Shown: positions 4,745-31,469 of the stretch, in pieces
Layout of the letters: every line of letters begins with the position of its first letter
How positions within the stretch are numbered: the first letter of the stretch is position 1
Source: Desulfopila aestuarii DSM 18488
Lineage (GTDB): Bacteria; Desulfobacterota; Desulfobulbia; Desulfobulbales; Desulfocapsaceae
Assembly: GCA_945863875.1 (NCBI GenBank)
Contig: CAMBBS010000044.1
Location: forward strand, 1 to 33,870
Direction: 5' to 3'
DNA length: 33,870 nucleotides
Position numbers and translations under genes: made by a program
The notes under the pieces: generated by a model
The model's database searches: none
What the model was told of the DNA's origin: nothing
The model's input: only the letters and a program-made list of their open reading frames with translations

Positions 4745-5195
4745 GGAATAAAACCGTGACGGGAGGTGGCTCTGAATATCGGGGATAAGATATCGCGAAG
4801 GCTCCTCTCTTTTCCAGTGCGAGGAATCATTTGCATAAACAGGCACTCCTCATTGAAGTCAGCATCACCACCATTAACAATGCTACATACAGCCGCTCAT
4901 GGATTATCCCTGCATTTACAGCTATCATCGCCACAACTATTCCCATAGCACCAACTGAAACCATTCCAAAACCAACAGCCCAGGCCTCCCTGGGTAACAT
5001 GCCTCCCCATCGGGCTCCTATGGCGCCACCCATCAGTTTGAATATGCAAGCAGCTGATAATACGATTAAAGCCAGAGAGAAGTCGAAATAAGTCTCGAAA
5101 TTCACCTTCAGGCCGACACTCGCTAAAAACACCGGGGCAAAAATGAAAGAAATTAATTCAGAGTTCCTGATCTCGAGGAAGAAGCAGCTATTGGT
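4745..5195 (-). pseudogene. Remnant of a cation/proton antiporter (CPA2/KefB-like)
   Basis: The minus strand reads ISFIFAPVFLASVGLKV, then IFKLMGGAIGARWGGM, LPREAWAVGFGM, GAMGIVVAMIA, AGIIHERLYVALL and VVMLTSM. This is the C-terminal membrane core of monovalent cation/proton antiporters. The upstream part is gone: a stop codon precedes the segment near 5195 and there is no start. Just after LTSM a one-base shift breaks the frame. The sequence resumes in another frame as LFMQMIPRTGKERSLRDILSP before fading. A full gene would be 400-700 codons, so this is a decayed fragment of about 130-150 codons. Confidence 0.7.
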
Positions 5196-5206
5196 TTATG
5201 TTACAA

Positions 5207-5232
5207 ATATTCCTGTAATAACAGGGGAATAT
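5207..5232. other. Imperfect inverted repeat
   Basis: ATATTCCTGT and ACAGGGGAATAT pair around AATA with a two-base bulge. It lies between two pseudogenes, so it may be a relic operator or a mobile element end. No function can be assigned. Confidence 0.3.
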
Positions 5233-5354
5233 AAATAAACGACTTATCAGTCAGCTTGAGACGATTGGTGACGGGTGAAGATTTTGACAAGATACCGCAT
5301 TTTCATCAATTAACACATCTAAGGCACATCTTAGCTTAACCAAGGTCCGACGAA

Positions 5355-12944: not shown

Positions 12945-13758
12945 TATACCCCCATTTCATTGACGTAGTGCCGGGTACGCCCACAGCTTCACGAAAGTCC
13001 ACCGATGGTCTGTCACATTTGCTGCCATCGCCGGGGTTTTCGGCCGTAATATCCGATCTTCACCTCAACTGAATGTTTCATGGGGACGAATCAAATTGTA
13101 GCAGGCCACGCAGATGGCGAACTTAGCCTTGAGCCAACGCATTGAACAGGCAACGGCCGGAGCCTTGCGCGTCAGACATCCCATAACCGCCAGTATAAGT
13201 TGGAACGTCCGATGTAGATGGTGTTGATCATCTGCCTTGGCGACTCTGCTAATCGCGCAAAAACTGACTGTTCGGTCCCGTAAATCACCTTACATTCCAC
13301 CTTGATGATCTTTACACCCTGTCTTGTCTTATGAACCGTGGCATAATCAAGATCAGCATCAATGACCCGCTCTGGATTCCTGGGCCGCCCGGGTTTGCCT
13401 GTCGGTGGCAGAGGAACCAGTTGGTGAAACAACTCACCCAAGACCTTGCCGTAATGGGGCAGATCATCTGAGACAAACAAGGGCTTGCCTTGACAGCAGT
13501 CGGTCAAATCCTTCAACCTCTGCCGAGCATCGTCCAGCTCACGCCCGCCAATCCTAAACGCTATCAGTAGTCGGGTTGGCGCGTCAATGGCCATCCAGAT
13601 CCACGTCCGTCCGTACTGGCGTTCGAGGTCTTCGGCACTGCCAGAACTTTACTTTTTTTCACAAAGGCCCATAACTCGTCAAGCTGCGCCTCGGTCATTT
13701 CCAACGAAGTCAGGAGGCTGGAAAAAAGCACATCAGCGCAGTATGTCAAAGACCGCAC
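12945..13758 (-). pseudogene. IS1-like transposase pseudogene, frameshifted
   Basis: On the minus strand the N-terminal frame reads MTEAQLDELWAFVKKSK. It shifts near 13600 to RTWIWMAIDAPTRLLIAFRIG and continues through DDARQRLKDL, LFVSDDLPHY, then QSVFARLAESPRQMINTIYIGRSN. It shifts again near 13180 to LTRKAPAVACSM and YNLIRPHET, and once more to MTDHRWTFVKLW. This order matches IS1-like transposases with a DELW motif and an acidic catalytic core. The zinc-binding N-terminal part is missing. With at least three frame changes it cannot make an active enzyme. Its 3' end abuts the IS6 remnant. Confidence 0.65.
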
Positions 13759-14354
13759 CCTGAAAAAACAGGATAGACAGGGTGAAGAGTCTTATGTCCA
13801 AAAAACGTTGAAAATCACTTTTTCGCCCACCAGGGATGAGCGGTAAAGCGGCCACCAAAATGAGCGCTCGAGAAAAAAAGTCAAATCCTGACTGTTATTT
13901 TGTGTTAGATTGTTTAAATTTTAATTATACGACTCGGCTGCTGGTCCAAAACTGGAACTGCTGACATGTCCACAACTTGAGATTGCAACACCAAATCTCA
14001 TAAAAATTGATTTAATCAAGAAGAAGCTTAAATTACCGTTCTGTTTATATTCTTGATGTTGCCATTTAATATCTATCACCTTAGCAAGTTGCCATTTCGT
14101 TCAAAATAACCAAAATCTTGTCGATCTTAACATCCCTATCGAAGATGTTGCCGGAAAGACATATGAACGAGGAAGCTGTTGGTTCTACAATCAGGAAAAG
14201 CAGCGGTTCGGTGCATACGGTACGGTAAAAACAACAGCCTTCGTTCTCCGGCCCTGAGCTTCGAACATGGAACCCACCGGAGCAACTCAGGTCCGACTCA
14301 ATGCAGTGACAACACCGCCCAAGGAATCTCTGGTCTCAGACAGGGAGGATTCAA
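13759..14354. other. About 600 bases without a supported gene
   Basis: AT-rich sequence with only short frames. GTTGCCATTT occurs twice in the same orientation (14058-14067 and 14088-14097). A 69-codon open frame at 14179-14388 on the plus strand resembles nothing I know and is antisense to the HipA-like tail. It probably consists of eroded mobile element flanks. Confidence 0.4.
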
Positions 14355-16670: not shown

Positions 16671-17069
16671 TCATGACCTAAGGTGCCCCTCCTGCAACTG
16701 TTTGACCTTTTCGGACAGGGCATACCGTCCTTTGACAAACAGCGGCATTTCCACCTTGGGGCCAATCCGTTCAATCTCCTCGGAAAATAGCAGCGATTCG
16801 CCGGCGGTAACGTCGACCTCGGCTGGCGACATGGGGCGCAGGTTGGTCGGGGAATTATATCTTTCATAATTTTCGAAAGCGAAAAACTTTAGATTGAGTT
16901 CCGCCCGCGCCTGCTCCAGGTGTATTGCCGTTGCCCCCATTGTCAGCTGACCGGCCTGGATATCGGGCTGTTTTCCGGCTGCTTCCAGCAATGTTGCTAT
17001 ACTGAGCTCAGCTGCCGAAAGAGGTGAAAAAGAAAGAAGCAAAAACAGCAGACAAGGCGGATATTTCAT
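16671..17069 (-). pseudogene. TolC-family outer membrane efflux protein, truncated after the N-terminal part
   Basis: From ATG at 17069 the protein has a signal peptide (LLFLLLSFSPLSAAE), then LSIATLLEAAGKQPDI and AIHLEQARAELNLKFFAFENY, a start typical of TolC-like outer membrane factors. Those proteins are usually 420-480 residues. Here the frame ends after 132 residues at LQEGHLRS. The second half of the repeat, needed for the trimeric barrel, is absent, and the sequence beyond does not resume recognisably. It was probably part of the arsenic/redox gene cluster or an efflux operon before truncation. Confidence 0.55.
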
Positions 17070-17112
17070 CAAGTAATTTCCCTGTAAAACGATGTGACGC
17101 GGCATAACGATT

Positions 17113-17448
17113 TTAATCGGCAACTGGTTTCTGCAGCATTTTCCATTCTTCATAGCCATTTTTATACCAGTACATTTCTGCCGATATACCCCAGTCTTCC
17201 GCTTACATTATGGCCTGATAGGCGCGCAGCATTCAGGTGAAGTAGAAAACGACGACCTTTTTGCCACCAATCTCCTGCGCCAGATTTTCTTTGGTCATTT
17301 TGTTTGATGGGTCATTTTTTTCAAAAAAAGGCAGATTCACCGCGCCGTTAATATGGCCAAGGGAGAATTTGTACGCCAGACGGTGGTCAATAAAAACCAC
17401 TCCGTTTTTCCAAAAGTACTCTGTTTGTTCAATGTCAATAATGTTCAC
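17113..17448 (-). pseudogene. Rhodanese-like protein with two in-frame stops and a lost catalytic cysteine
   Basis: The frame reads IIDIEQTEYFWKNGVVFIDH, then FSLGHINGAVNLPF and GGKKVVVFYFT. It meets TGA (17233-17235), continues MLRAYQAIM, meets TAA (17203-17205), and continues AEDWGISAEMYWYKNGYEEW and KPVAD to a final stop at 17113. The whole run is in one frame and covers a complete single rhodanese domain. The active-site loop normally begins FYC; here the codon is TTC (Phe), one base from TGC. GTG at 17448 is a possible start but the upstream signal peptide region also appears shifted. It would have been an exported sulfurtransferase-like protein. Confidence 0.7.
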
Positions 17449-17538
17449 ATCGCCTGCAGCATGACCAGGAAGTGCTGCAAGATGAAAGCATATTGCATCT
17501 GTGCTATGGGAAGATGCGGTTTTTTAATGATACAAAAA

Positions 17539-18000
17539 TCACTCACTGTTTTCTTGTCTGTCAAGAGAGTCCGGCAGGGTTTCGACGAAGGCGCGGATTT
17601 CATCACGCACCAGCCGATAGCAGTTACGTTGTTCTTCAAGGTCGGCTCCTTTTGACGCCAGCTCTTTTGCCATCGCCGGTGGATCGGTGAAGCCGACATG
17701 CAGCTTTTTTTGTGCTCCCGGCAAAAAAGGGCATGTCTCGCGGGCGTTATCGCAAACGGTAATAACGCCATCAAAGGTCATGTCTCTAAGAGAATCGATA
17801 TGCTTTGAGGTGTGCCTGGATATATCAACCCCGCCCTCGGCCATAACCTCGACCGCCGTTTGATTGAGGCCATGGGTTTCAATACCGGCGGAATATGGTT
17901 CGATCGAATCGCCTTTGAGCGCTCGGGTCCAACCTTCCGCCATCTGACTGCGGCAGGAATTGCCGGTGCAGAGATAGAGAATCTTGAGTTTGGGTGCCAT
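17539..18000 (-). CDS. arsC: Arsenate reductase, thioredoxin-coupled (low-molecular-weight phosphatase fold)
   Basis: A 153-residue cytoplasmic enzyme that reduces arsenate to arsenite. The P-loop CTGNSCRS places the nucleophile at Cys11 and Arg at 17. The redox relay cysteines Cys83 and Cys90 lie in VCDNARETCP, as in the Staphylococcus pI258 type, and the general acid Asp106 is in TDPP. Every residue needed for thioredoxin-linked catalysis is present. AAGG lies 8 bases before the ATG. It appears intact although its neighbours (rhodanese, thioredoxin, arsR, permease) are broken. The ccdA-like gene lies 90 bases upstream. Confidence 0.93.
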   Translation of the reverse strand: MAPKLKILYLCTGNSCRSQMAEGWTRALKGDSIEPYSAGIETHGLNQTAVEVMAEGGVDISRHTSKHIDSLRDMTFDGVITVCDNARETCPFLPGAQKKLHVGFTDPPAMAKELASKGADLEEQRNCYRLVRDEIRAFVETLPDSLDRQENSE

Positions 18001-18089
18001 GTTCTTTACCTTTTCTTTAACTTTGCAAATTGTTCAGCCAGGCACTGATTTTTTCCTTGAGCTGATCCCTGATCTGTACGCGCCGCATA

Positions 18090-18794
18090 TCAGGCTGGGA
18101 AAAATGGCTGGACGATGAAATAGACGCCGAGCAGACCAATCATCGTTCCCGCCAGACGCCGGAATACCCGGCCGCCCTGCTGCCAACTGCTGTTTATGAG
18201 GAGACGCTTGACCATGGCTGTCGAACTGCCGGCAACGACTATGGGAAGACAATGGCCGACAGCAAACAGGAGTATAAATATTACGCCGGTGAAGACCTTG
18301 GCCTGTACGGAGACGATGGCAAGGATCGGGGCAATGAAACCAAAGGTGCAGGAGCCGGACAGCACCCCATAGGCAAGACCGAGAACAAAGGCCCCGGATA
18401 ATCCTTTCAGGGTTAACCTGGCCATGAGGCCACCGGACATCGAGCATTTTGCCACCCCGAGCATATCAAGGGCGACCCAGAGCAGTAGCAGACCGATGAC
18501 AATGGTCCAATACGGTCCGACATCACCGAGCATGCGGCCGAGCAGCGAGCAGACGACGCCGATAACGGCAATGGTGATAAACAGCCCGGTGGTGAAAACT
18601 ACAGCATATTGGGTTGCCTTACGTCCTTCGACCAGATGATTCTGGCCGCCGACATAGCCGATAATAAGTGGAATGGAGGCCAGATGGCAGGGGCTGAACA
18701 GCACACTGACCATACCCCAAAGAAAACAGCCGAAGGCACCCAGCAGAAGGCCTTGGCCCATCCATGAATTGATAGCGAGAAAGACCTGATCCAT
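18090..18794 (-). CDS. CcdA/DsbD-like membrane thiol-electron transporter
   Basis: A 234-residue inner-membrane protein with six or seven hydrophobic segments. The start at 18794 (MDQVFLAINSW) lies 4 bases after the stop of the thioredoxin gene and follows GGGAG; the longer open frame starting at 18830 runs into that gene. Cys36 in FSPCHLASIPLIIGYVGG and a second Cys in SGSCTFGFIAP are placed as in the CcdA family, which passes electrons from cytoplasmic thioredoxin to exported thiol proteins. The neighbouring exported thioredoxin would be the natural partner. Confidence 0.85.
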   Translation of the reverse strand: MDQVFLAINSWMGQGLLLGAFGCFLWGMVSVLFSPCHLASIPLIIGYVGGQNHLVEGRKATQYAVVFTTGLFITIAVIGVVCSLLGRMLGDVGPYWTIVIGLLLLWVALDMLGVAKCSMSGGLMARLTLKGLSGAFVLGLAYGVLSGSCTFGFIAPILAIVSVQAKVFTGVIFILLFAVGHCLPIVVAGSSTAMVKRLLINSSWQQGGRVFRRLAGTMIGLLGVYFIVQPFFPA

Positions 18795-18798
18795 GAAG

Positions 18799-19199
18799 TT
18801 ATTTGACTCCCAATTTTTCAAGTTCGGCAATTATAGACGCTTTGTCCATGAATTCTTCGTGCCTGGCCATTCCTTTACCCCCGGCAGTGTAGAAAATCTG
18901 GGTAGGAATAGTCCGAATACCGTATTTCCGGGCGGCTTGTGGCTTCCCCCAGACATCAATAAATACAATGGCTGCCCGATCTTTATACCCCTTCTCGAAT
19001 TCTTCCATTATCGGCGTTATCATTTTGCAGGGTATGCAACTTTTGGCGCCGAGGTCAACCATTGTCACCTTACCGGGGAACCGGTGCCTCCGGTATTGTC
19101 TGGACATCAGTGGCGGTGGATCCTGCCGCGGTGAACAGCAGGATTGAGGCTGAAAGAACAACGGTCCTGGCTATTGTTTTGAATGAAAAATATTTCACA
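18799..19199 (-). pseudogene. Exported thioredoxin-like protein, frameshifted after the signal peptide
   Basis: AGGAGG (19204-19209, minus strand) precedes GTG at 19199. It opens a signal peptide VKYFSFKTIARTVVLSASIL followed by LFTAAGSTATDVQTIPEAPVP. The frame then ends at TAA. The thioredoxin domain continues in another frame: GKVTMVDLGAKSCIPCKMI, then AAIVFIDVWG, RTIPTQIFYT and a C-terminus at 18801. A four-C run (GGGG at 19075-19078 on the plus strand) where three would keep the frame explains the break. The active site is CIPC. Repairing one base restores a protein of about 133 residues. It is either a recent pseudogene or a sequencing error. Confidence 0.75.
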
Positions 19200-19210
19200 T
19201 ATCCTCCTGT

Positions 19211-19594
19211 TATCTACAATAGATTTTTGCGTTGTCAGCGACCTGGGCAATAGCGCCGATGTCGACTTCGATATTGCCTTTCTCAAAGCCGTGATCGGTG
19301 AGACGGAGATGATTGAAATTCTTAAAACCAGCCTCTTACAGGGATTTTTTGGTACAGTCAAGGGCACAGCCGTCGATAGCCAGAATAGAAGCTGCCGCCT
19401 CGGTTGACTTGATAATACCACTCACAGGACCACCAATCCCGGCCAGACAAAACATCTAGCCGTTGCCGTTAGCGCAGAGTTCTCTGGCCGTCCGGTCAGC
19501 CAGTTCGCCGACATCGGCGGCACCGGAACAGGAACATATCAATTTGGGGGGCTGCACTACAGCCACAACCATCATTTTTTTGCATTGGAATCAT
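19211..19594 (-). pseudogene. DGC-domain putative zinc-binding protein, with one frameshift and two stops
   Basis: Minus-strand pieces read DGCGCSAAP, then (after a one-base shift in a C6 run) LICSCSGAADVGELADRTAR and ELCANGNG. A TAG follows, then MFCLAGIGGPVSGIIKSTEA, SILAIDGCALDCTKKSL, a TAA, and EAGFKNFNHLRLTDHGFEKG to the final stop at 19211. The spacing of Cys pairs, the LAGIGG and AIDGC motifs, and LTDxGxEKG match DGC-type cysteine-rich proteins often found in arsenic, mercury and redox clusters. Both internal stops lie in otherwise aligned positions, so this is a decayed gene. Confidence 0.65.
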
Positions 19595-19658
19595 GATACA
19601 TCTTTTTTCGCTTAGATTTTTTGTTTTATAAAAAAAATATCTCTATTCCCATAGGGAC

Positions 19659-19898
19659 TTAGTTTTTGAGACTGAGCATGTTCTTCACTTCGTCGAGTGA
19701 TGGAACCTTTCCCACACTCTTTCCCTCGCCATCGATTACCAGCCCGGGAGTCATCATCACCCCGAAGGTCATGATCTGATTAATATCGGAATATTTTTCG
19801 ATCTCATAGTCGATACCAAGTTCTTTCGCCGCAGCCACAGCGGTTTCAGCAAGTTTGGTGCATTTGGCACAGCCTGGCCCAAGGATCTGAATCTTCAT
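19659..19898 (-). CDS. Small redox-active disulfide protein (thioredoxin-like, CxxC)
   Basis: A 79-residue protein: MKIQILGPGCAKCTKLAETA, VAAAKELGIDYEIEKYSDI, then FGVMMTPGLVIDGEGKSVGK and a short end. It has the compact glutaredoxin-like fold of the thioredoxin_3 family, with active site C-A-K-C at residues 10-13 and the cis-proline in MTPGLV. An upstream in-frame ATG at 19925 is less likely because it lacks a ribosome site, whereas AAGAAG precedes 19898. It appears intact. In related clusters it follows an ArsP/SO_0444-type permease, as here, and probably delivers electrons or handles metal. Confidence 0.85.
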   Translation of the reverse strand: MKIQILGPGCAKCTKLAETAVAAAKELGIDYEIEKYSDINQIMTFGVMMTPGLVIDGEGKSVGKVPSLDEVKNMLSLKN

Positions 19899-20837
19899 TT
19901 TTTTCTTCTTTATAAAAATATCCAAAAACTAACCCGAAAGACAACCTACAGATTGAGAAGGTGATCACGACGAGAGACGCAAAAACCATCGTTTTTTTAA
20001 TGCCAAGTACCGTGTTGATGACCAGCATGCTCGGCAGACTGAGCGACGGCCCGGCCAGCAACAGGGCGAGTACCGGTCCTTTTCCCATGCCGTTATCCAT
20101 AAGCCCCTGCAGGATCGGTACCTCGTTAAGGGTGGCGAAATACATGAGGGCACCGGCGAACGAGGCGAATAAATTGGCCACGAGCAAATTGCCGCCAACG
20201 GCCCTTGCCACCCATTCGGAAGGGATAATGCCTTCATGGCCAACCCGGCCGAGCAGAAGGCCAAAAAGCAGCAGTGGCAGAATCTGCTTGGCAAAGGTCC
20301 AGGAAGAGAAGAACCACCCGCCGATTCCCCCTTATCAGTGCTGATAAAGACCGACAGGCCGATGAAACCGGCGGTGAAGACAATAAGCGTTTGCTCCTGA
20401 AAGACAATGGCCAGGGCGATTGCCGGAATGGCAGTGAGGCCAACTTTCCAGGGCCGCATCTGAAAGCAGGAGATTAAAATCAGGCCAAGGGCCGCGCCCA
20501 TTTTATATATCCCGGAAAAGAGCGGCAGGATCGTGCAGGAACAGACGGCAGGAATGGTACCGGACACTGAGACCACACCATAGGCCATGACTTATTTGGC
20601 CTTGGGACCGAGGTATTTCATCACCGAGGCCTGGCTGACAAATACGCCGATTACTCCGGCAATAAAAAAGGCCGGAACCAGACAGAGCAGGACGTGCTCC
20701 TGAGCATACCACTTGACCAGGCGGAAGGCCTCGAGCAGGCTGTTGTCGAAACGGGCAGTGCCGATGGGGAGAAGATAGCAGCCAAGAAAAACGGTGACGA
20801 TCAACAGCAGGTATTTGTTCTCAGTTTTCCAATTCAT
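19846..20837 (-). pseudogene. ArsP/SO_0444-type permease, broken by a stop, a deletion and a frameshift
   Basis: The N-terminal frame (start 20837) reads VLLCLVPAFFIAGVIGVFVS, then VMKYLGPKAK and a TAA at 20592. The same frame continues VMAYGVVSVSGTIPAVCSC and TILPLFSGIYKMGAALG. Here the expected segment of roughly 60-100 residues is missing, and membrane sequence resumes. A frame change near 20330 leads to FFSSWTFAKQILPLLLFGLL, EWVARAVGGNLLVANLFAS, MYFATLNEVPILQGLM, MGKGPVLALLLAGPSLSLPS and VLGIKKTMVFASL. The last frame overruns into the small thioredoxin gene (stop 19846), so its own end is lost too. The intact protein would be a membrane permease exporting arsenicals or metals. Confidence 0.75.
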
Positions 20838-20955
20838 CGATTCAATCCATGTATATTTGACTAAATAACCATGTATTTACAAAAATCTCTCGCGAAAACC
20901 CAACCATAAAAACATTTCCTATACTGAATCAGTGCACCTCTTGGTAAGCCGCTCT

Positions 20956-20986
20956 ACAGTCGTACAGTGGGAGTCTGAACGACTGT
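20956..20986 (-). terminator. Hairpin between arsR and the permease
   Basis: ACAGTCGTACAG (20956-20967) pairs with CTGAACGACTGT (20975-20986), 11 of 12 positions matching, around TGGGAGT. It follows the arsR stop by 14 bases in the direction of transcription. No U run follows on the minus strand, so it is more likely an attenuating or stabilising hairpin than a terminator. Confidence 0.45.
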
Positions 20987-21000
20987 CTCGACACAAGGCA

Positions 21001-21258
21001 TTAAGAGTTGAGGATGCAGGGCACCTTTAGCCGGTAATAAACCTGTTTGCCTCGTTTCTCACTCGCAACAACTCTGGCCTGCTTGAGTGTTGCCAAATGC
21101 TTTTAAATGGAAGAAAAATCGACATCGACAAGCAACTCGCAAACGCACAGTTCGCCAGCGGCCAGTCGCTCAGCCATCCACAGCCTGGTGGGATGGCCAA
21201 GAGCTCTGAACACATTGGCTTTGGCCTCAGCAATGGCCTTTTCACGTTCGGTCTTCAT
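21001..21258 (-). pseudogene. arsR: ArsR-family repressor with an in-frame stop in the recognition helix
   Basis: From ATG at 21258 (AAAGGA upstream) the frame reads MKTEREKAIAEAKANVFRAL, GHPTRLWMAERLAAGELCVC, then ELLVDVDFSSI, TAA, and KHLATLKQARVVASEKRGKQ and VYYRLKVPCILNS. This is a winged-helix ArsR protein. ELCVCEL is the thiol metal-binding motif of the DNA-binding helix. The stop replaces the residue before KHL, normally Ser (TCA to TAA), inside the recognition helix. The C-terminus is also a few residues short. A product ending at the stop would lack half the domain. Confidence 0.8.
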
Positions 21259-21523: not shown

Positions 21524-23248
21524 ATGAACTGCTTCAAATCCATCGGACTGTGTTTACTTCTGCTCGCTTGTCCATCCATCGCCATGGCGGAAAACCCAAA
21601 GACATCGCTGCGCGCCGGGGTCGCGAGCATGATTACGCCGGTCAGTGCCGTCAAATATTATTACCAGGCTGTTGATTATATAGGAAAAAAACTGGGGATG
21701 CCGATTGAGATGGTACACCGGACTACCTATGATGAAATTGACGTGATGCTGGAAAACAAGGAGGTGGATTTCGCCTTTATCTGCTCCTCCCCCTATGTCC
21801 TCAATAACGAGAAATTCGGTGCAGAACTGCTGGTGGCGCCACAGGTCAACGGCAAGGTTCACTACAGTTCGAACATCATCGTCCACAAGGACAGTGAAAT
21901 TCATGAGGTTGAACAGCTTCAGGATCGCACCTTTGTTTTTGTCGATCCAAAATCCAACAGCGGTAAGCTCTATCCCACCTATCTGCTGGCTAAAAGGAAC
22001 CACACCCCGGAGAGTTTTTTCCGGTCGCAGCTTTATAGTTACAGTCACAACAAATCGGTGGAGCTAGTTGCCAAAAAGCGGGTGGAGGGAGCGGCTGTCG
22101 ATTCGATAGTCTATGATTTTATGGTGGCAACCGGTTCGCCCTATGCCGAGCAAACCAGGGTCATTCACCGCTCACCGCCATTCGGCATCCCGCCGGTGGT
22201 CGTTCCCCTGGGGCTGCCCTTGTATCTGAAACAGTCGCTGCGAGCCGTCTTTCTTGAGATGCATATGGACCCTGAAGGTAAACAGATACTTGAACAGATG
22301 CGAATCGAAAAATTCGTTGAAGTGCCTGATGCCAACTATGATTCCATCAGGGCTATGCGTGCATTTATTGCTAATAATGTCGCCGATCATGCCGCCGATC
22401 TCGAATTTGCCGCGAACCTTTCCGGCCAAAACGAGTCACCAGGTGAAGTCATTTATTTTGGCGTTCTACCAAGAGACAACCCGATTCTCGCCTATGAACG
22501 CTATCAGCCGCTGATGGATTATCTTACCGATACAACGGGAATTAAAACGGAGCTGCACCTCGAGAAAAGTTACCAAGAGGTGGTCAACAGTCTTGGCCAG
22601 GGCAAGACATCTTTTGCTCTGCTCGGGCCGCTGACCTATCTCGATGCATATAAACGGTTTGCAGTTGTTCCCATCGCCAGGGGCAAAACATCAAAGGGCG
22701 AAACTTTTTATCGCAGTGCTCTGGTCACTGCCGGCGACAGCGGTATTGATGATCTAAAGCAGCTGACTGCGAAACGTTTTGCCTTTGCGGCACTCTGGTC
22801 GACCTCAGGCAACCTCATTCCCCGATACATGCTGGCCCAGTCAGGGATTCATCTCGACCACCTCAGCGCCTACCACCATTACAGTTACCACGACACAGTA
22901 GCCAAAAAAGTCATCAGCGGGGAATTCGACGCCGGCGCCCTGCGGCTGTCAACCGCCGAGCGATATAGTGTGCACGGTCTGAAGATAATCGCTACCTCAG
23001 ACCCGATCCCTACCGGTCCTGTTGTCGTTTTACCGAAAACACCGTACCTGGTAATGCGCAAGGTGCAAAGGGCCCTGCTCGGTATGAGCGGCGATGAAAG
23101 AGGCAAAAGCATACTGCAAAAACTTGATCCTGATCTGCAGGGCGGCTTTGTCGTCGCTTCCGATGCCGATTATTTTGCCATCCGCAACATGATTAACGAT
23201 GTGCCGAAAACCTGCGGCATTGACTGTCATCCAAACATTTCTTTTTAA
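21524..23248 (+). CDS. Tandem PhnD-type periplasmic binding protein (candidate arsenic oxyanion sensor)
   Basis: A 574-residue exported protein. The signal peptide (residues 1-22, ending SIAMA) is followed by two successive phosphonate/phosphite-binding-like domains. Domain 1 (about 28-270) starts LRAGVASMITPVSAVKYYYQ and has VDFAFICSSPYVL. Domain 2 (about 310-560) starts VIYFGVLPRDNPILAYERYQ and has TSFALLGPLTYL. Single-domain relatives AioX and ArxX bind arsenite and signal to a kinase; that link is established for those families. Here the next gene is a sensor kinase 12 bases away. The doubled receptor is unusual. The start ATG follows GAGG by 5 bases. The cognate ligand (arsenate, arsenite or phosphate) is inference. 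Confidence 0.8.
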   Translation: MNCFKSIGLCLLLLACPSIAMAENPKTSLRAGVASMITPVSAVKYYYQAVDYIGKKLGMPIEMVHRTTYDEIDVMLENKEVDFAFICSSPYVLNNEKFGAELLVAPQVNGKVHYSSNIIVHKDSEIHEVEQLQDRTFVFVDPKSNSGKLYPTYLLAKRNHTPESFFRSQLYSYSHNKSVELVAKKRVEGAAVDSIVYDFMVATGSPYAEQTRVIHRSPPFGIPPVVVPLGLPLYLKQSLRAVFLEMHMDPEGKQILEQMRIEKFVEVPDANYDSIRAMRAFIANNVADHAADLEFAANLSGQNESPGEVIYFGVLPRDNPILAYERYQPLMDYLTDTTGIKTELHLEKSYQEVVNSLGQGKTSFALLGPLTYLDAYKRFAVVPIARGKTSKGETFYRSALVTAGDSGIDDLKQLTAKRFAFAALWSTSGNLIPRYMLAQSGIHLDHLSAYHHYSYHDTVAKKVISGEFDAGALRLSTAERYSVHGLKIIATSDPIPTGPVVVLPKTPYLVMRKVQRALLGMSGDERGKSILQKLDPDLQGGFVVASDADYFAIRNMINDVPKTCGIDCHPNISF

Positions 23249-23260
23249 TTGAGCAGCGTC

Positions 23261-24709
23261 ATGCGATTTTCCCTGCAGACAAAATTCATCCTGGTCACCT
23301 TTCTCGCCGTGTTCGGCATTACCTCGGTCATCAGCCTGGTGACCGCCGCCAAAACCCGCTCGGCCTTATATTATGCCACCGAAAAACAGGGCCGTATTCT
23401 TGCCCAGACGGTCAGTGCGCTGATCATCAACGAACTCATTTATGAGAAGCTTGGCCTGGTCGAAGAGGGCGGCTTGATAGACAACTACATGCGCGATCTG
23501 CACCAGCGAAGCGATATCGCCCTGCACTTTGTCGCCGTGCTGGATAATGGTCTGCGGGTCATTTCGCACAGTGATTTCAAAGAGTTCGGCAAGACCTACG
23601 ATAGCAGTTTTATCCGGGATGCCCAGCAGATCGATGCTGTCCAAGTAAGAAAAATTGCCGGCGATGGACAAAGTCCCGCCTCTCTGGAGTTTGTCTCGCC
23701 GCTGTCGATTGAAGGCAAACGCTGGGGCCTGTTGACCTTTTCCCTCTCACTTGAGGAAATGGAGCAGGAAATGCGGGCGATGATTGTGCAAATCATCGCC
23801 CTTTCCGCCCTGGCGCTTATCTTTCTCTTTACTCTCATTTATCTGCTCAGCAGGCGGTTTATCAAACCTATCATAGACCTCTCCGCAGCGATGGGCGAGG
23901 TCGAAGTGGAAATGGGTGAAAAGACCGTTCCGGTTTCCGGCAACGATGAACTGGCACGTCTCGGAGAAAGCTACAATGAAATGGTTCGACGCATTCGCAG
24001 GGCCAATGAGGAAATGAAGCTGGCCCATGAAAAACTGCTGCAATCCGAAAAGCTGGCGACGCTTGGGGTGCTGTCGTCGAGTATCGCCCATCGTATCAAT
24101 AACCCCCTCGGCGGCCTGTTCAACTGTGTAAGCATGCTGCGCCGGCAGGGCGATGATGCCGACTTCAGAAAAGATTATCTCGCCCTGATTGACGAGGGGC
24201 TGCAGAGTATCAAAGAGACCGTCGGCCAGTTGTTGTACACGGTCGGCAAACGCCAGGGGGAAGAAAAAAAATCGGACGTGGCCGCCGTGCTCGCCAGTGT
24301 CTTGAAGTTTCTCGATTACCGTCTGAAAAAACAGGATATTTCTTTTCGTGAAAACATTGATGCAGGGCTGGTTGCCCCCATTGCCCCCCATGACCTGGAA
24401 GAAATCTTCCTCAATACCATGCTGAACGCCATTCAGGCCATGGATGGCGGCGGCGAGCTGGAGGTTACCGCTGGGCGGGCAAAGCAGCAGATCGCCATAC
24501 ACATCAGGGATACCGGGGTCGGTATCCCCGAAGATCAGGTTGCCCATGTCTTCGATCTTTTTTACTCGACCAAAGAGGCCGGAGAGGGGACCGGCCTCGG
24601 TATGTGGATGACCTATGAACTGGTAAAAAAATATCAAGGAGATATCTCGGTGAGCAGCCGGGAAAACATCGGCACAAGCATATCTTTAATGATCCCGGAG
24701 GGGATATGA
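23261..24709 (+). CDS. Membrane sensor histidine kinase (ArxS/AioS-like role)
   Basis: A 482-residue kinase. TTG at 23249 is possible but ATG at 23261 gives a clean N-terminus. Membrane segments lie at about 9-30 and 174-197, with a periplasmic Cache-like domain between (DIALHFVAVLDNGLRVISHS near 85-104). HAMP spans about 198-250. The dimerisation helix LATLGVLSSSIAHRINNPLG places the phospho-acceptor at His277, followed by Arg rather than the usual Glu. The ATPase motifs are NTMLNAIQAM (N box), DTGVGIP (G1), FYSTK (F) and GTGLGM (G2). It probably receives a signal from the upstream binding protein and passes phosphate to the overlapping regulator (ATGA overlap at 24706). Confidence 0.9.
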   Translation: MRFSLQTKFILVTFLAVFGITSVISLVTAAKTRSALYYATEKQGRILAQTVSALIINELIYEKLGLVEEGGLIDNYMRDLHQRSDIALHFVAVLDNGLRVISHSDFKEFGKTYDSSFIRDAQQIDAVQVRKIAGDGQSPASLEFVSPLSIEGKRWGLLTFSLSLEEMEQEMRAMIVQIIALSALALIFLFTLIYLLSRRFIKPIIDLSAAMGEVEVEMGEKTVPVSGNDELARLGESYNEMVRRIRRANEEMKLAHEKLLQSEKLATLGVLSSSIAHRINNPLGGLFNCVSMLRRQGDDADFRKDYLALIDEGLQSIKETVGQLLYTVGKRQGEEKKSDVAAVLASVLKFLDYRLKKQDISFRENIDAGLVAPIAPHDLEEIFLNTMLNAIQAMDGGGELEVTAGRAKQQIAIHIRDTGVGIPEDQVAHVFDLFYSTKEAGEGTGLGMWMTYELVKKYQGDISVSSRENIGTSISLMIPEGI

Positions 24710-26055
24710 AACATTCCATTCTTCTTGTCGAAGATGAAAAAATAGTCAGGGTTTCCCTGACGGATGCACTCAGGGCGGAGGGGTATACGGTTCTCCCCGT
24801 CGAGGATGGCGGCAAGGCGATGAGCGCCCTGGAGGAGGCTGAATTCTCCCTGGTTATAACCGATATTCGTTTACCCGAGGTCAGCGGTATCGAAATACTG
24901 CGCAAATGTCTTTTTGAGGCACCGACCACCCCGGTTATCATGATGACCGCCTTCGGCACCATTAAGGACGCGGTCGAAGCGATGCGCCTTGGCGCCTTCG
25001 ATTACATGACCAAGCCCTTTGATCTCGATGAGATGCTCCTCACGGTCGGCAAGGCCCTTGAGTTACAGTCGCTCACCAGTGAAAACATCCGCCTGAAAAA
25101 GGAATTAAGCAGATACTGGGGCGCCCCCAATATAATAGGCGAGAGCAAGGCAATGCGGACAATTTTCGGCCTGCTCGATAAGATCAGCCGGACCGACTCA
25201 ACGGTGCTCATTCTCGGAGAATCCGGTACCGGCAAGGAGTTGATCGCCTCGACCATCCACTACCAGAGCAGCAGGAAAAAAAAACCCATTATCCGGGTGA
25301 ATTGTGCAGCGCTTCCCGAGGAGCTTATCGAGAGTGAGCTGTTCGGCTATGAGAAAGGTGCCTTCACCGGTGCGGTAGCCCGAAAGCCAGGCCGTTTTGA
25401 TCTCGCCGACGGCGGCACGATCTTTCTCGATGAGATAGGGGATCTGCCCCTGCTCACCCAGACAAAAATCCTCCGTGTCCTTGAAGAGCGCACCTTTGAA
25501 CGTCTCGGCGCGACGCAATCTTCTGCGGTGGATGTGCGCATAATCGCCGCGACCAACAAGGATCTGCAAAAGGAAATCGAAAAAGGTTTGTTTCGTGAAG
25601 ATCTTTATTACCGGTTACATGTCATCCCCATGGTCATGCCGCCTCTGCGGAAAAGAAAAGATGACATCCCCCTGCTCATCCATGCCTTTGCGAGAAAATT
25701 TAACGATCAGCTGGGCACCGATGTCTCCTTTGACCCTGAAGCGATCCAGGTTCTGATGCAGCACACCTTCCCCGGCAATGTCCGGGAATTGATGAATGTC
25801 ATCGAGCGCTGTATTGCCCTGGCCAACGATACGATCATCAGACGAACCGATCTCCCCGGCCATATCGCCGGCAGCCGCAACCAAAAGACACCGCTGGCGA
25901 CACTCCAGGAGATCACCGCCGAGGCCGAAAAGAATCATATCGCCCAGATTCTCAGACTGACTGACGGCAACCGATCAAAGGCCTCGGCTATCCTGGGGAT
26001 CAGCAGAAAAACGCTCTGGGAAAAGATTAAAAATATCGGCTTGACTGCTGACTGA
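24706..26055 (+). CDS. Sigma54-dependent response regulator (NtrC family)
   Basis: A 449-residue activator. The receiver (1-120) has acidic pocket Glu9-Asp10, phospho-acceptor Asp53 in ITDIRLPEVSG, Thr81 and Lys103. The AAA+ domain (about 140-375) has GESGTGKE (171-178), GAFTGA (218-223, contacts sigma54), Walker B FLDEIGDLPL and VRIIAATNKDL. A Fis-type helix-turn-helix ends the protein (GNRSKASAILGISRKTLWEK). All parts needed to drive sigma54 promoters are intact. It overlaps the kinase gene by four bases. The arrA promoter 250 bases downstream is the obvious target. Confidence 0.95.
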   Translation: MKHSILLVEDEKIVRVSLTDALRAEGYTVLPVEDGGKAMSALEEAEFSLVITDIRLPEVSGIEILRKCLFEAPTTPVIMMTAFGTIKDAVEAMRLGAFDYMTKPFDLDEMLLTVGKALELQSLTSENIRLKKELSRYWGAPNIIGESKAMRTIFGLLDKISRTDSTVLILGESGTGKELIASTIHYQSSRKKKPIIRVNCAALPEELIESELFGYEKGAFTGAVARKPGRFDLADGGTIFLDEIGDLPLLTQTKILRVLEERTFERLGATQSSAVDVRIIAATNKDLQKEIEKGLFREDLYYRLHVIPMVMPPLRKRKDDIPLLIHAFARKFNDQLGTDVSFDPEAIQVLMQHTFPGNVRELMNVIERCIALANDTIIRRTDLPGHIAGSRNQKTPLATLQEITAEAEKNHIAQILRLTDGNRSKASAILGISRKTLWEKIKNIGLTAD

Positions 26056-26382: not shown

Positions 26383-28941
26383 ATGAAAATTAAAAGGAGG
26401 GACTTTCTTAAACTGTCGGCAATAGCAGGGGCAACTGCAGCTTTAGAGGGTGCACAGTCTCATCTAGGAATGAACGCCCTTGCCGCAAGTTCAAAAAGCG
26501 ATAAAAAAATAGGTGAAGGTCCCGGTGAGTGGAAACCGACCACCTGTCAGGGTTGTACCACCTGGTGTCCCGCGGAAGTATTCGTGCAGGACGGCCGGGC
26601 GGTAAAGGTACGGGGCAACAGATACTCAAAGCAGAATGACGGCAAAGTCTGTCCACGGGGCCATCTGTCGCTGCAGCAGGTGTATGATCCCGACCGGCTT
26701 AAAGTGCCAATGAAGCGTACCAATCCGAAGAAAGGCCGCGGTGTTGATCCGAAGTTCGTGCCGATCACCTGGGACGAGGCATTCAACACCATCGCCGACA
26801 AGATGATGGAGCTGCGCAAAAACGAGGAACCGGAAAAGTTCTGCCTGATGCGCGGCAGATATACCTATATGCGCGATATCATCTATGACGTGCTGCCGAA
26901 AATTTTCGGCACACCCAATAATATTTCGCACAGCTCCACCTGTGCCGAGGCGGAAAAATTCGGCTCTTACTATACGGAAGGACTCTGGGACTATCGGGAC
27001 TATGATATCTCCAATTCAAAATATATCCTCATCTGGGGCTGCGACCCCGTGGCCAGTAACCGTATGGTTCCGGCCACTATCAAGAGACTGGGGGACGCTC
27101 TTGACCGGGCAACGGTGGCGGCCGTCGATCCGCGTCTGACCACGAGTGCCGCCAAGGCCAACGAATGGCTGCCGCTTATCCCCGGCACCGATGGCGCCTT
27201 GGCCCTGGCTATTGCCCATGTCATTCTCACTGATGGTGCCTGGAACAGAGAGTTTGTCGGCGACTTTATCGACCGCTTTAATCGTTTTAAAGCCGGAAAA
27301 ACTGTAAACGAAAAAGACTTCGTCGAGAAGGAAACCCACGGGCTGGTTAAATGGTGGAATCTTGCGGTAAAAGATATGACCGCCGCCAAGGCCGCCGCGA
27401 TCTGCGGCGTACCGGCCGAGCAGATTCTTCGCGTCGCCCGGGGCCTGGCGAAATCGGCGCCGCATGTCGCCGTCTGGATGGGTCCTGGGGCGGCAATGCA
27501 GGCCCGCGGCGCCTACTCCGCTATGGCGGTGCACGCCCTGGCTGGACTTCTCGGCAGTGTGGACAACGTTGGCGGCTCTCTGCAGGCCGCGAAAATCCCG
27601 GTCAATAAAATGGACGACGATATTCTGAAAAAACATCAGGATGACTTGGCCAAGAAACATACCAAGCTGGAAAAGATCGATCAGCGTGGTCGCCTCGAGT
27701 TGCCGGTTCTCGCCAGCGGAAAATCAGGTGGAGGCGTTTCCACCAATAACGTCCCCACGGGCATCTTGAACAAGGACCCCTATGAGCTCAAAGTAGTTGT
27801 AGGCTATATGAACAACTTCGTTTTTTCCTCTAATGGTACCGACCGCTGGGAAAAAGCCCTGTCATCGGTGCCATTTACCGTTCATCTGACCACCAACGCC
27901 TCCGAATTCACCATGTTTGCCGATATAGTCCTTCCCTGTGCGGTAAGCAAATATGAGCGTTACGGGTTTGTCAAAACAAAGGCCAATCGCTATGCTACCT
28001 GTACCCTGCTGCAACCGGTTGTCGACCCCATCTGGGATGTGATCCAGGATGAATCGGAATTTCCGTTCCTGCTCGCTGAAAAATTCAAAGAACGCGGTTT
28101 CCCCAACCTGTATGACTGCCTGGTCGAGATGTACTCGGATCCGGAAACAGGAGCAGCGCCTAAGGATTCGAAGGAATTTACCGTCTTCGCCCTGAAGTAT
28201 TACACCCAGCCGTTGTGGGATGGCAAGAAAGACACCCATGGCGACAAGATCAACGGCTGGAAGGACATGCTCGAAAAAGGCATGTGGAACTCCGAAGCCT
28301 ATAAATATAAAGCCCACTGGGGCGGCAAATTCGGCACGGTGACGAAAAAGTTTGAATTTTACAGCGAGACCTTGAAGAAAGCCCTCACCGGTCATGCCGA
28401 AAAACACAAGGTTGATGTGGACACGGTCATGGCCAAAATTAATTACACCGCCCGCGGCGAACTCGCTTTTGTACCACACCATGAGCCATCGATGCGGCAT
28501 GGCAGCGAAAAGGACTTCCCCCTGCTGTTCGTCGACTACAAATCCCGCCTGAACCGCGAGGGCAGGAGCCAGAACAGCCCTTGGTATTACGAGTTCAAGC
28601 ATGTCGATCCCGGTGATATCGGCGGCCAGGATACAGTGCGTATCCATCCTGCCGACGCGGCAAAATACGGCGTCAAGGATGGCGATAAGATCAAACTCAC
28701 CTCAATGGGCGGCAGCGGCGAATGCTTCGTCCGGGTCTGGGAGGGAGTCAGGCCCGGCACGGTAAGTAAGTCCTACGGCCAGGGCCACTGGGCCTATGGC
28801 CGCACGGCCACCGGTGATTTTGCCGGGAGCGCAACCAGAGGCGTCAATAACAACACCATCATTCCATGGGAACTGGAACGGCTGTCCGGCTCAAATGCTC
28901 GAAACGGCGGCCATGCAGCAGTTCGTATAGAGAAGATCTAA
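26383..28941 (+). CDS. arrA: Arsenate respiratory reductase-like molybdoenzyme, large subunit
   Basis: An 852-residue molybdopterin enzyme of the DMSO reductase family. A TAT signal (KRRDFLK) sends it to the periplasm. Cys55, 58, 62 and 90 (C-x2-C-x3-C-x27-C) hold a [4Fe-4S] cluster. Arg159-Tyr160, His183, molybdenum ligand Cys187, Lys192 and Tyr204 fall at the same relative spacing as the ArrA active-site residues Arg165, Tyr166, His189, Cys193, Lys198 and Tyr210 that I recall from the Shewanella enzyme structure. PKFVPITWDEA also fits ArrA. It would reduce arsenate to arsenite as terminal acceptor. ArxA or a polysulfide-reductase relative remain possible. The start follows GGAGG by 5 bases, and a sigma54 promoter lies ahead. 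Confidence 0.8.
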   Translation: MKIKRRDFLKLSAIAGATAALEGAQSHLGMNALAASSKSDKKIGEGPGEWKPTTCQGCTTWCPAEVFVQDGRAVKVRGNRYSKQNDGKVCPRGHLSLQQVYDPDRLKVPMKRTNPKKGRGVDPKFVPITWDEAFNTIADKMMELRKNEEPEKFCLMRGRYTYMRDIIYDVLPKIFGTPNNISHSSTCAEAEKFGSYYTEGLWDYRDYDISNSKYILIWGCDPVASNRMVPATIKRLGDALDRATVAAVDPRLTTSAAKANEWLPLIPGTDGALALAIAHVILTDGAWNREFVGDFIDRFNRFKAGKTVNEKDFVEKETHGLVKWWNLAVKDMTAAKAAAICGVPAEQILRVARGLAKSAPHVAVWMGPGAAMQARGAYSAMAVHALAGLLGSVDNVGGSLQAAKIPVNKMDDDILKKHQDDLAKKHTKLEKIDQRGRLELPVLASGKSGGGVSTNNVPTGILNKDPYELKVVVGYMNNFVFSSNGTDRWEKALSSVPFTVHLTTNASEFTMFADIVLPCAVSKYERYGFVKTKANRYATCTLLQPVVDPIWDVIQDESEFPFLLAEKFKERGFPNLYDCLVEMYSDPETGAAPKDSKEFTVFALKYYTQPLWDGKKDTHGDKINGWKDMLEKGMWNSEAYKYKAHWGGKFGTVTKKFEFYSETLKKALTGHAEKHKVDVDTVMAKINYTARGELAFVPHHEPSMRHGSEKDFPLLFVDYKSRLNREGRSQNSPWYYEFKHVDPGDIGGQDTVRIHPADAAKYGVKDGDKIKLTSMGGSGECFVRVWEGVRPGTVSKSYGQGHWAYGRTATGDFAGSATRGVNNNTIIPWELERLSGSNARNGGHAAVRIEKI

Positions 28942-28960
28942 AGAAGAGGAGGACTGAATA

Positions 28961-29725
28961 ATGACACAATATGGAATGATAATCGACCTGAGAAAATGTG
29001 TCGGCTGCGGCGCCTGTGCGCTCGCCTGCAAAACCGAAAACAATACGGCCCTGAGGAAAAACGGCCAGACCTTTAACTGGGCTGACTTTATTCACGAGAC
29101 CAGCGGGACCTTTCCCAATACCAAGTTTAGGACCATGCCGGTGCTGTGCAACCATTGCAGCAACGCCCCCTGTGTCGAGGCCTGCCCGGTTGAACCAAAG
29201 GCGATGTTCAAGACGCCCGAAGGCATGACCATGCACAACGATGAACGGTGCATCGGCTGTCGTGCCTGCCAGCAAGCCTGTCCATACAGCATGGATGAGG
29301 TGATGAAGGATGGTGCTTCCGGGCAATACAGCGTCATCAGTTACAATGCGGAGGGAGAATCGACACAGCCGTTTTTTACCGATACGACCGAGGTTATCAA
29401 GGGATGCTCTGCTTCCGGGGCGGAGCTGGCGGCCCTGACCAAGGCGACGCCTCCCCATAAAACAAACTACTCCCACCCGGATTATGAAAATGTGCGGCGG
29501 GACAATATCGTCGAAAAATGTATTTTCTGCGATCACCGGGTAAAAAATGGGCTCCTGCCGGCCTGTGTTGAGGCCTGCCCATCGGGAGCCCGGGTTTTCG
29601 GCGATCTCAACGATCCCGCAAGCGAACCGGCAAAACTTCTGCAAAAGCATGCGAGTGTCGTGTTGAAAGAGGAAGAGGGCACACAGCCCAATGTGCGCTA
29701 TATTCGCGAATATTCGGCAAGATAA
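28961..29725 (+). CDS. arrB: Four-cluster ferredoxin subunit of the molybdoenzyme (ArrB-like)
   Basis: A 254-residue protein without a signal peptide, expected to be co-exported with ArrA. Sixteen cysteines form four [4Fe-4S] sites: Cys13/16/19/23, 63/66/71/75, 97/100/103/107 and 187/190/202/206, in the order typical of DmsB/PhsB/ArrB subunits. It passes electrons from the quinone-side donor to ArrA. A stretch at about 115-180 is a loop without cysteines that is longer than in short relatives. GAGGAGG precedes the ATG, and the gene starts 19 bases after arrA. Confidence 0.88.
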   Translation: MTQYGMIIDLRKCVGCGACALACKTENNTALRKNGQTFNWADFIHETSGTFPNTKFRTMPVLCNHCSNAPCVEACPVEPKAMFKTPEGMTMHNDERCIGCRACQQACPYSMDEVMKDGASGQYSVISYNAEGESTQPFFTDTTEVIKGCSASGAELAALTKATPPHKTNYSHPDYENVRRDNIVEKCIFCDHRVKNGLLPACVEACPSGARVFGDLNDPASEPAKLLQKHASVVLKEEEGTQPNVRYIREYSAR

Positions 29726-29740
29726 GAGCCGGCTTTACCT

Positions 29741-29773
29741 GCGGCACCACCGGTCTCCTGTCGGTGGTGCCGC
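29741..29773 (+). terminator. Strong hairpin between arrB and the chaperone gene
   Basis: GCGGCACCACCG (29741-29752) and CGGTGGTGCCGC (29762-29773) form a perfect 12-pair stem with a 9-base loop. The bases after it (gtcattgttt) are a weak U tract. It may partly end transcription or protect arrAB mRNA, giving more enzyme than chaperone. Confidence 0.65.
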
Positions 29774-29788
29774 GTCATTGTTTAATAT

Positions 29789-30439
29789 ATGGGTTATGAC
29801 CTTATGAACAACTCGGAAGAAGTTCTCCATCGCGGTAATTGCTTCAAGTTACTGGCCGCCTGTTTCTGCGAACCGGATAATGAGATGTTCCTGGAAGAAC
29901 AGCTCTGCGACAATCTGGCGCTGCTACTGCAATCCCTTTCGCCTGCTGCGGCTGCCCAGGCCGAGGCCATGAAGTCCTGGCTGCAGATCACGGAGCAGGA
30001 GCGGCTCCGCCTGGATCATGCCGCACTCTTTGTCGGTCCCTTTGAACTGATCGCCGTGCCCTACGGTTCGGTCTATCTGGAAAATAATAGACGTGTCATG
30101 GGCGATTCAACTCTCAGCACCCAGCGTTTTTACCAGGATGCCGGACTCTTGGTCGAGATGAAAGAGCCGCCCGATCATATTGCCATTGAGCTGGAATTCA
30201 TGTACTTCCTTTGTGCCAAAGAGGCCGAGGCGCTTTCACAAGGTGCACTGGATGAAGCGATGCGCCTGCAGGGACTCCAGGCGGAGTTTTTCCTGAAAAT
30301 GATGGCCTGGCTGCCGCAGTTCTGTGAGCTGGTCCGTGCCGGTGCTGACACCGAATTTTACCGGGCGGCGGCCGGCTGTCTGGATAATTTTTATGCATCG
30401 TGCCGACTCGTCTATACGGGCAACGACACAATAAATTAG
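29789..30439 (+). CDS. TorD/DmsD-family molybdoenzyme maturation chaperone
   Basis: A 216-residue cytoplasmic all-helical chaperone that would bind the TAT leader of ArrA during cofactor insertion. Family features are the hydrophobic helix repeats, LDHAALFVGPFELIAVPYGS near residue 75, and the signature EPPDHIAIELEFMYFLCAKE near 128. Either ATG 29789 or ATG 29804 (MNNSEE) may be the start; neither has a clear ribosome site, which suggests low expression. It is the third gene of the operon. Confidence 0.85.
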   Translation: MGYDLMNNSEEVLHRGNCFKLLAACFCEPDNEMFLEEQLCDNLALLLQSLSPAAAAQAEAMKSWLQITEQERLRLDHAALFVGPFELIAVPYGSVYLENNRRVMGDSTLSTQRFYQDAGLLVEMKEPPDHIAIELEFMYFLCAKEAEALSQGALDEAMRLQGLQAEFFLKMMAWLPQFCELVRAGADTEFYRAAAGCLDNFYASCRLVYTGNDTIN

Positions 30440-30458
30440 GATATGGTGCAGGTGGTGC

Positions 30459-31469
30459 ATGTTGATCTTTTCGCTGCTGACTAAAACAGCCGGTGCGACA
30501 CCGGTTGCTGAGATTGTTGCCGGCCGATGTTTACGTCGGCGATTGATCAGTTTTGACTGCACCCGGTGTCTTGACAGCTGTGCCGCGAATGCCCTGTCTT
30601 TGCAAAACAGCAAGATACAAATAGACAATGCCCGGTGTACCGGCTGTGGCAGGTGCACGGCGGTCTGTCCGGCGGAGGCACTGATCTTAGCCGGTTTCGA
30701 TCTCTGCCGCATGCTGGACGAATGCAATTCTTTTGCGGATTCCGTATTTAATTGCCCTCGGCAAAAGCAGACTTTCTCAAAGGAATTCCCGCTCCCCTGC
30801 ATCGGCGTGCTGTCCAATGAGGCACTGCTCTCTATTGCCTTGAAAGGCAATGGCCCGGTCTATTTCAACCTTCTTGCCTGTCCGGAATGCCCTCAGTTTC
30901 ATGGAGTTGAGGGGTTTGTCGAGACTGTCGAGCGTGTACTAAAAACAATTGGCCCCCATCTTAACACCAACACCGACCTCCGGGCGATTAGCGCAGCTTC
31001 CCAAATGCCCGCCGTCCTGCCAAGCGACAGAAGATCTTTTCTGCTCGGCCTTGGCAGCAACGTTGTCTCGCTTGTGCAAAGCCGTTACGCCATAAAACCA
31101 TCCCTGTCAAAAAAAGAACCACACAAGGCAAACGGTCGCCGGCTCCCTGAAAAAACCGCCTTGCTGAAAAAAGTCATAATGGCGCAAGACAGTTCCGTTT
31201 CCCCGACACTCTTGGCACAATGCACCCCGACACTCTCCCTCACCGATTCCTGCACTCTCTGCCCGCGCTGTGCGGGGATGTGTCCAACCGGAGCAATCAA
31301 GCTGGTGCGGCAGGAGAACAGCAGTAAAAAGCTCACATTTGCTGGCGGCAGATGTACCGGGTGCGGCCTCTGCGCCGCCTTTTGCAAGGTGCAAGCGATC
31401 ACCATCAGCGGGCCTCTCTCTGTGAACGAAGAGGCATGTTGCCCTGGTTTACATGGCAGGGTTATTTAA
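30459..31469 (+). CDS. Polyferredoxin-like [4Fe-4S] protein of the arr operon
   Basis: A 336-residue protein with four cluster motifs in two pairs. Near the N-terminus are Cys34/37/41 (FDCTRCLDSC) and Cys60/63/66/70. Near the C-terminus are Cys265/268/271/275 and Cys299/302/305/309. Between them is a Cys-poor region with ACPECPQ and an internal RRSFLLGLGS stretch. A C-terminal CC pair precedes the end. No signal peptide or membrane segment is evident. It starts 20 bases after the chaperone gene, with AGGTGG ahead of ATG. It may feed electrons to ArrAB or help assemble clusters. Its exact role is unknown to me. Confidence 0.8.
   Translation: MLIFSLLTKTAGATPVAEIVAGRCLRRRLISFDCTRCLDSCAANALSLQNSKIQIDNARCTGCGRCTAVCPAEALILAGFDLCRMLDECNSFADSVFNCPRQKQTFSKEFPLPCIGVLSNEALLSIALKGNGPVYFNLLACPECPQFHGVEGFVETVERVLKTIGPHLNTNTDLRAISAASQMPAVLPSDRRSFLLGLGSNVVSLVQSRYAIKPSLSKKEPHKANGRRLPEKTALLKKVIMAQDSSVSPTLLAQCTPTLSLTDSCTLCPRCAGMCPTGAIKLVRQENSSKKLTFAGGRCTGCGLCAAFCKVQAITISGPLSVNEEACCPGLHGRVI

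Follow-up and report, generated by a model that had tools for sequence, protein, structure and literature searches.

Selective decay of an arsenic/redox gene cluster beside an ArrA-type operon in a Desulfobulbaceae-like bacterium

Why should an arsenic-resistance cluster that is falling apart keep some of its genes as open frames under full constraint? The question is raised by the window, that is, the whole stretch of DNA analysed here: contig C44 (CAMBBS010000044.1, 33870 bases) of a draft genome listed as Desulfopila aestuarii DSM 18488 (4.69 Mb in 93 contigs, 98.5% complete). Nine genes lie on its minus strand between positions 16671 and 21258 in the order arsR-arsP-arsE-DGC-trx-ccdA-arsC-rhodanese-tolC, which is the order of the ars-redox cluster in its relatives; as the frames of the core genes are not all intact, the window holds a decayed member of that cluster type. 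An earlier note, made from the letters alone, had read the locus as an arsenic/redox cluster decaying beside an intact respiratory operon, with arsR, the permease, the DGC protein, the thioredoxin and the rhodanese broken, tolC truncated, and arsC, the ccdA-like gene and a small disulfide protein (arsE-like) intact. Comparison with relatives bears out each of these readings, the operon being of the ArrA type, and we find that the decay is real and selective. Our main reference cluster, locus L038 (G003:C3), belongs to a same-genus metagenome-assembled genome taken as BRH_c16a. The nine genes are as follows.

20980..21258, minus strand: arsR remnant (85% to the L038 ArsR over q1-86, one stop, small indels)
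19921..20837, minus strand: remnant of an arsP-type permease (PF03773, matched in two pieces, 80.4 and 63.8 bits)
19659..19898, minus strand: arsE-like thioredoxin-fold protein of the MTH895/ArsE family, intact (TIGR00412, 102.6 bits, cut-off 62)
19216..19590, minus strand: DGC protein remnant (PF08859, 88.1 bits, with one TAG and one TAA, start damaged)
18799..19198, minus strand: periplasmic-type thioredoxin (trx), whose domain, an open frame, is out of phase with the signal peptide
18090..18794, minus strand: ccdA-like (DsbD_TM) membrane electron carrier, intact (PF02683, 53.6 bits), under purifying selection
17539..18000, minus strand: arsC, putative thioredoxin-type arsenate reductase, intact (best NCBIfam match TIGR02691, pI258 family, 136.8 bits, below the cut-off of 174.3), under purifying selection
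17116..17481, minus strand: rhodanese-like remnant (64% to the L038 rhodanese over q22-143, two stops)
16671..17069, minus strand: tolC N-terminal remnant (132 codons, matching at 63% the beginning of a 425-aa TolC-like frame that adjoins ccdA in G004; no Pfam match)

The earlier note had supposed the cluster to be whole in close relatives, and so it is: in L038 arsR, arsP, arsE, DGC, trx and ccdA are all open frames, whole or nearly whole versions occur in other relatives, and the gene order recurs at loci such as L059, L065 and L133, with variation in DGC and arsC. Set against L038, the window arsR carries an in-frame TAA (21103-21105), a 6-base deletion and a 2-base insertion near its end, and arsP an in-frame TAA (20592-20594) together with deletions of 366 bases (~20481), 1 base (~20329) and 15 bases. 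The DGC gene, whose broken copy is the sole PF08859 match in its own genome G000 (E<=0.001), has two stops, TAG (19456-19458) and TAA (19336-19338), and close to its start a deletion that changes the frame; in trx a 1-base insertion at ~19081 splits the signal peptide from the domain, and a second apparent insertion at the gene start may be an alignment edge effect. The rhodanese has an in-frame TGA and a TAA, and its tblastn match starts only at reference residue 22. No frame-changing indel was seen in arsE and ccdA relative to L038, the latter being 94% identical to the ccdA of the intact relative. Indels at the extreme ends of the compared stretches (arsR, arsP, arsE, DGC, trx start, rhodanese) depend on the stretch boundaries and were not counted as lesions. 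Stop recoding was rejected: since the stops are TAA, TAG and TGA, stand at positions with differing L038 residues and occur alongside frameshifts and deletions, no stop reassignment fits.

The reverse of the window is seen at L038 9869-10590 (G003:C3): only a remnant of the window-type arsC is left there, with a different arsC adjoining it, and arsR to ccdA are whole. Because L038 holds only this remnant, the window arsC was compared with seven other relatives, and the L058 copy, with one stop near its end, was left out of the arsC counts. The window gene is open throughout and resembles those of the seven in sequence, and Cys 11, 16, 83 and 90, the expected redox positions, are present in it and conserved in the aligned relatives.

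The selective character of the decay emerges from the differences between the window and L038, which were polarised by outgroups (7 to 10 relatives per gene), many sites staying unresolved and the rhodanese being left out for want of outgroups. On the window branch, nonsynonymous and synonymous changes number 10:5 in arsR, 38:19 plus one stop in arsP, 22:9 plus two stops in DGC and 14:12 in trx, compared with 0:7, 7:29, 6:10 and 4:5 on the sister branch; over the four genes this amounts to 84 nonsynonymous changes, 45 synonymous changes and 3 stops in the window vs 17, 51 and 0 in the sister (Fisher P=4.5e-8). For ccdA the counts are 2:17 on the window branch and 4:16 on the sister branch, and ccdA and arsE together give 5:20 vs 7:16 (P=0.51). 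Under arsP-like decay, ~26 extra nonsynonymous changes would be expected in ccdA, where two are seen in all (P=2e-9).

Codon evolution was then modelled with a purpose-written branch model of the Goldman-Yang type, in which the sister branch had its own nonsynonymous to synonymous rate ratio (omega) and the remaining branches formed the background; the window branch was fitted on a closer set of at most nine taxa, the arsR model having saturated with all 14. The omega of arsP is 0.212 on the window branch vs 0.062 in the background (P=5e-6), and that of arsR, arsP and DGC pooled is 0.18 vs 0.07 (P=1e-6). Quite differently, ccdA stands at 0.060 vs 0.064, with omega=1 rejected at P=9e-8, and arsC at 0.105 vs 0.110, with omega=1 rejected at P=8e-11 (3e-10 on a second tree shape). 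In the protein trees, the end branch of arsP is tenfold longer in the window than in its sister BRH_c16a (0.26 vs 0.025); those of ccdA measure 0.043 and 0.037, in a tree poorly resolved around the window copy. On the window lineage, arsP, and arsR, arsP and DGC taken together, have lost constraint, whereas ccdA and arsC have kept normal purifying selection.

With the repressor and permease gone and arsC surviving, the earlier note had pictured arsenite made in the cytoplasm without a local exporter. This is literally true of the locus; the arsenite problem that it implied is unsupported, because an intact ACR3 arsenite exporter (TIGR00832, 456.6 bits, cut-off 282.8, no stops) is encoded on contig C11 and because the characterised ArsP, that of Campylobacter jejuni, moves trivalent organoarsenicals and not inorganic arsenite according to the relevant passage of PMC6205960. 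The lost permease is of the ArsP type (ArsP cluster 1) and may share the substrate of the characterised protein, and C11 also encodes a further ArsP-type permease, open and accompanied by its own ArsR. Indeed, the second complete ars cluster that the earlier note proposed to look for exists in part: adjoining ACR3 on C11, arsR, arsP, arsE and trx are open, but the ccdA there is wrecked (~residues 61-185 of 234 missing), and no DGC match was found in that cluster. We rejected a recent duplication as the origin of the two clusters, since the C11 arsP falls in a well-supported clade with Desulforhopalus and Desulfosediminicola (100/99), apart from the window copy. Pooled, the C11 arsR, arsP, arsE and trx have an omega of 0.083 vs 0.079, omega=1 being rejected at P=1e-13. 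A separate weak CcdA-like frame lies on C85 (20 bits).

The two clusters are thus complementary, each of the five genes that they share having at least one intact copy: arsR, arsP and trx at C11, ccdA in the window and arsE at both. On balance, we think it probable that the C11 cluster and ACR3 rendered the genes of the window cluster superfluous one by one, CcdA and ArsC being kept with their partners in trans; the complementarity rises above coincidence because ccdA is fully constrained while its broken neighbours, arsP above all, are not. The window CcdA would survive as the sole intact CcdA of the ars type detected in the genome, probably passing electrons through the membrane to the periplasmic thioredoxin that C11 now encodes, while the window ArsC would reduce arsenate entering the cytoplasm and the resulting arsenite would exit through ACR3. 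ArrAB-type enzymes act outside the membrane, and for respiratory reduction by ArrAB the lost genes would not be needed. A redox role for CcdA and thioredoxin in ars operons is a published proposal and not a tested mechanism, and in the passages devoted to it (PMC2963123) its authors consider it doubtful that CcdA works for ArsC across the membrane.

It is tempting to go further and to picture two separately descended clusters merged into one system over two loci, with CcdA and ArsC supplied by the window and ArsR, ArsP, the periplasmic thioredoxin and ACR3 by C11, to which a bolder addition would be that the frame-shifted trx, devoid of its signal peptide, serves the cytoplasmic ArsC. The window trx domain is an open frame for which omega=1 is rejected (twice log-likelihood difference 8.1); we hold this reading to be rather unlikely.

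Several observations weigh against gene-by-gene redundancy. The complementarity could be chance, three shared genes broken here and one there giving odds of 2 in 5 (~0.4), and arsR, DGC and trx taken singly do not reject the background omega, the signal coming from arsP and the pooled set. The arsE counts on the window branch are 3:3, in a gene too short to judge alone. The window arsC is not unique in the genome, a second, different arsC lying on C18, and a weak second ACR3-like match, under the cut-off at 89.4 bits, lies on C9. In two relatives, G003 and G043, both ccdA copies are intact, so that redundancy is not always followed by loss. The raw counts on the C11 branch (32:18 in arsP, where the L090 branch has 28:67; 6:3 in arsE; 9:3 in trx) would alone suggest relaxation. 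We give the codon model more weight because synonymous sites are near saturation between these lineages; for the C11 arsP alone, it yields an omega of 0.099 vs 0.062 (P=0.11), which leaves open a mild relaxation.

If the whole cluster were dying, arsE, ccdA and arsC would be intact merely because they have not yet been hit. Disabling lesions in five of the nine genes, with tolC as a remnant, fit such a course, and so does the promoter scan, in which nothing stood above shuffled sequence (4 promoter-like sites found vs 5.5 expected); a terminator scan likewise gave nothing above shuffles. It is hard to reconcile, however, with the 2:17 of ccdA where arsP-like decay predicts so many more nonsynonymous changes, or with an arsC omega at background and significantly below 1, and we hold it to be unlikely. 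That the broken frames might be errors of sequencing or assembly deserves a thought in a draft of 93 contigs where some lesions are indels of one or two bases; yet the lesions include the 366-base deletion and several substitution stops, and much of the contig is filled by long open genes, though a few other stretches look broken. Because the nonsynonymous excess is lineage-specific and confined to the broken genes, error is a very improbable source.

CcdA/DsbD proteins have general roles, and ccdA might have been kept for one of these (general periplasmic thiol reduction, cytochrome maturation), its survival then being uninformative on arsenic. The Pfam match to DsbD_TM is in line with such a role, as are L051 and L101, where ccdA stands with trx alone among the genes sought. 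At the great majority of the listed loci, on the contrary, matches to arsR, arsP, arsE, arsC or ACR3 lie near ccdA, and the weak frame on C85 could fill the general role, so that we regard a non-arsenic ccdA as decidedly unlikely. In sum, the window cluster genuinely belongs to a known cluster type and has partly decayed; the evidence that two of its genes survived selectively is good, and redundancy with C11 and ACR3 offers a reasonable but unproven account of the cause.

Upstream of arsR, on the opposite strand, stand the genes of the respiratory operon and its regulators.

21524..26055, plus strand: arr regulatory genes, intact, for a PhnD-like binding protein (PhnD family match), a histidine kinase and a sigma-54 response regulator (NtrC-type family match)
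26383..31469, plus strand: arrA, arrB, TorD-like chaperone and ferredoxin-type protein, intact (NCBIfam and structure matches)

In NCBIfam the arrA product matches ArrA far better than any other family, at 1114 bits, though below the cut-off of 1600; for the arrB product, ArrB is the best family at 247.8 bits, below 450. The best solved structure match, by a wide margin, is ArrA 6cz7 (E=2e-292). The operon is of the ArrA type, probably encoding a respiratory arsenate reductase, and its host is a Desulfobulbaceae-like bacterium that probably respires arsenate. ArrA was found at E<=1e-60 in 15 of the 57 genomes searched (own included). Among the nine of 14 ArrA relatives whose arr neighbourhoods were fetched, an ars-redox cluster lies within the stretch in three (G009, G035, G006) and in none of the other six; the arr-ars linkage is therefore recurrent, and the same regulatory gene order adjoins ArrA in these three genomes. 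Between arsR and the arr genes, G009 has MobB-like and MoeA-like frames, G035 other frames including a MobB-like one, and G006 an ACR3, an ArsR and a radical-SAM-like frame (the names MobB, MoeA and radical-SAM being our presumption from the sequence). The window interval is only ~265 bases, and by comparison of these layouts a former local exporter may possibly have been lost there.

Closest to the window CcdA in the named collection are Desulfobulbaceae metagenome-assembled genomes and isolates: BRH_c16a (94%), Desulfobulbus sp. Tol-SR (91%) and Desulfoprunum (86-87%). Matches to ars-type ccdA of at least 40% identity occur at two separate loci in six of the 57 genomes (own included), the second copy being broken or fragmentary in four (G000, G004, G009 and G012, of which that in G012 may be a contig end) and intact in G003 and G043. 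At L053 (G004:C114) and L054 (G009:C93) the second ars-type ccdA is truncated or stop-ridden, and the other copy in each genome is intact. At L042 (G004:C41) an ars-redox cluster is followed by the 425-aa TolC-like frame and then by two frames that we take to be membrane-fusion-like and, at 1026 aa, RND-like, where the window has only its TolC remnant. Elsewhere in the window, the minus strand holds broken frames at 13172-13760, presumably a transposase remnant (the longest frame has no Pfam match), and at ~4800-5250 a broken fragment that, read by eye, resembles a cation/proton antiporter. On another contig of the same genome (G000:C77:5623-6825, minus strand; L004 1225-2430), an in-frame TGA stands at the first Cys of the CxC motif in a permease of the SO_0444 family (NCBIfam NF033936, 398 bits); TGA was counted in many of the 42 matching relatives and in none of the others, these counts not being position-specific. 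The family is already listed as a UxC selenoprotein in the relevant part of a 2026 review (PMC13188914).

The locus shows, gene by gene, what a probable arsenate respirer can dispense with in an ars cluster and what it retains, and the survival of CcdA amid decay offers a hint, open to testing, that a single CcdA per genome is both sufficient and required. It also illustrates that local gene loss is poor ground for a physiological gap without a whole-genome search. Pseudogenised ars clusters beside arr genes were not recognised in the literature searched, and we claim absence from print no further than that. The nearest known systems are the arsC redox-gene clusters of PMC2963123, whose account, in the part concerned, gives eight instances in seven organisms, seven of the eight with arsC. 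Like them, the window has the same three redox genes and arsC; unlike them, its arsR, ArsP-type permease, trx and DGC are broken, and the passages describing those clusters speak neither of decay nor of neighbouring arr genes. In Geobacter sp. OR-1 (PMC4319506), as here, arrAB has arsenic-resistance genes on its flanks and another arsenic island lies elsewhere, but the arr-linked island there consists of arsD, arsA, acr3 and arsR, whereas that of the window is of a partly broken ArsP/CcdA type with ACR3 on another contig. As to the permease, the window remnant reads HVLLCLVPAFFIAG and has the CSC motif, matching the description of ArsP cluster 1 in the pertinent passages of PMC4435449, from which it differs in being a pseudogene and in reading PAV where LAV precedes the motif.

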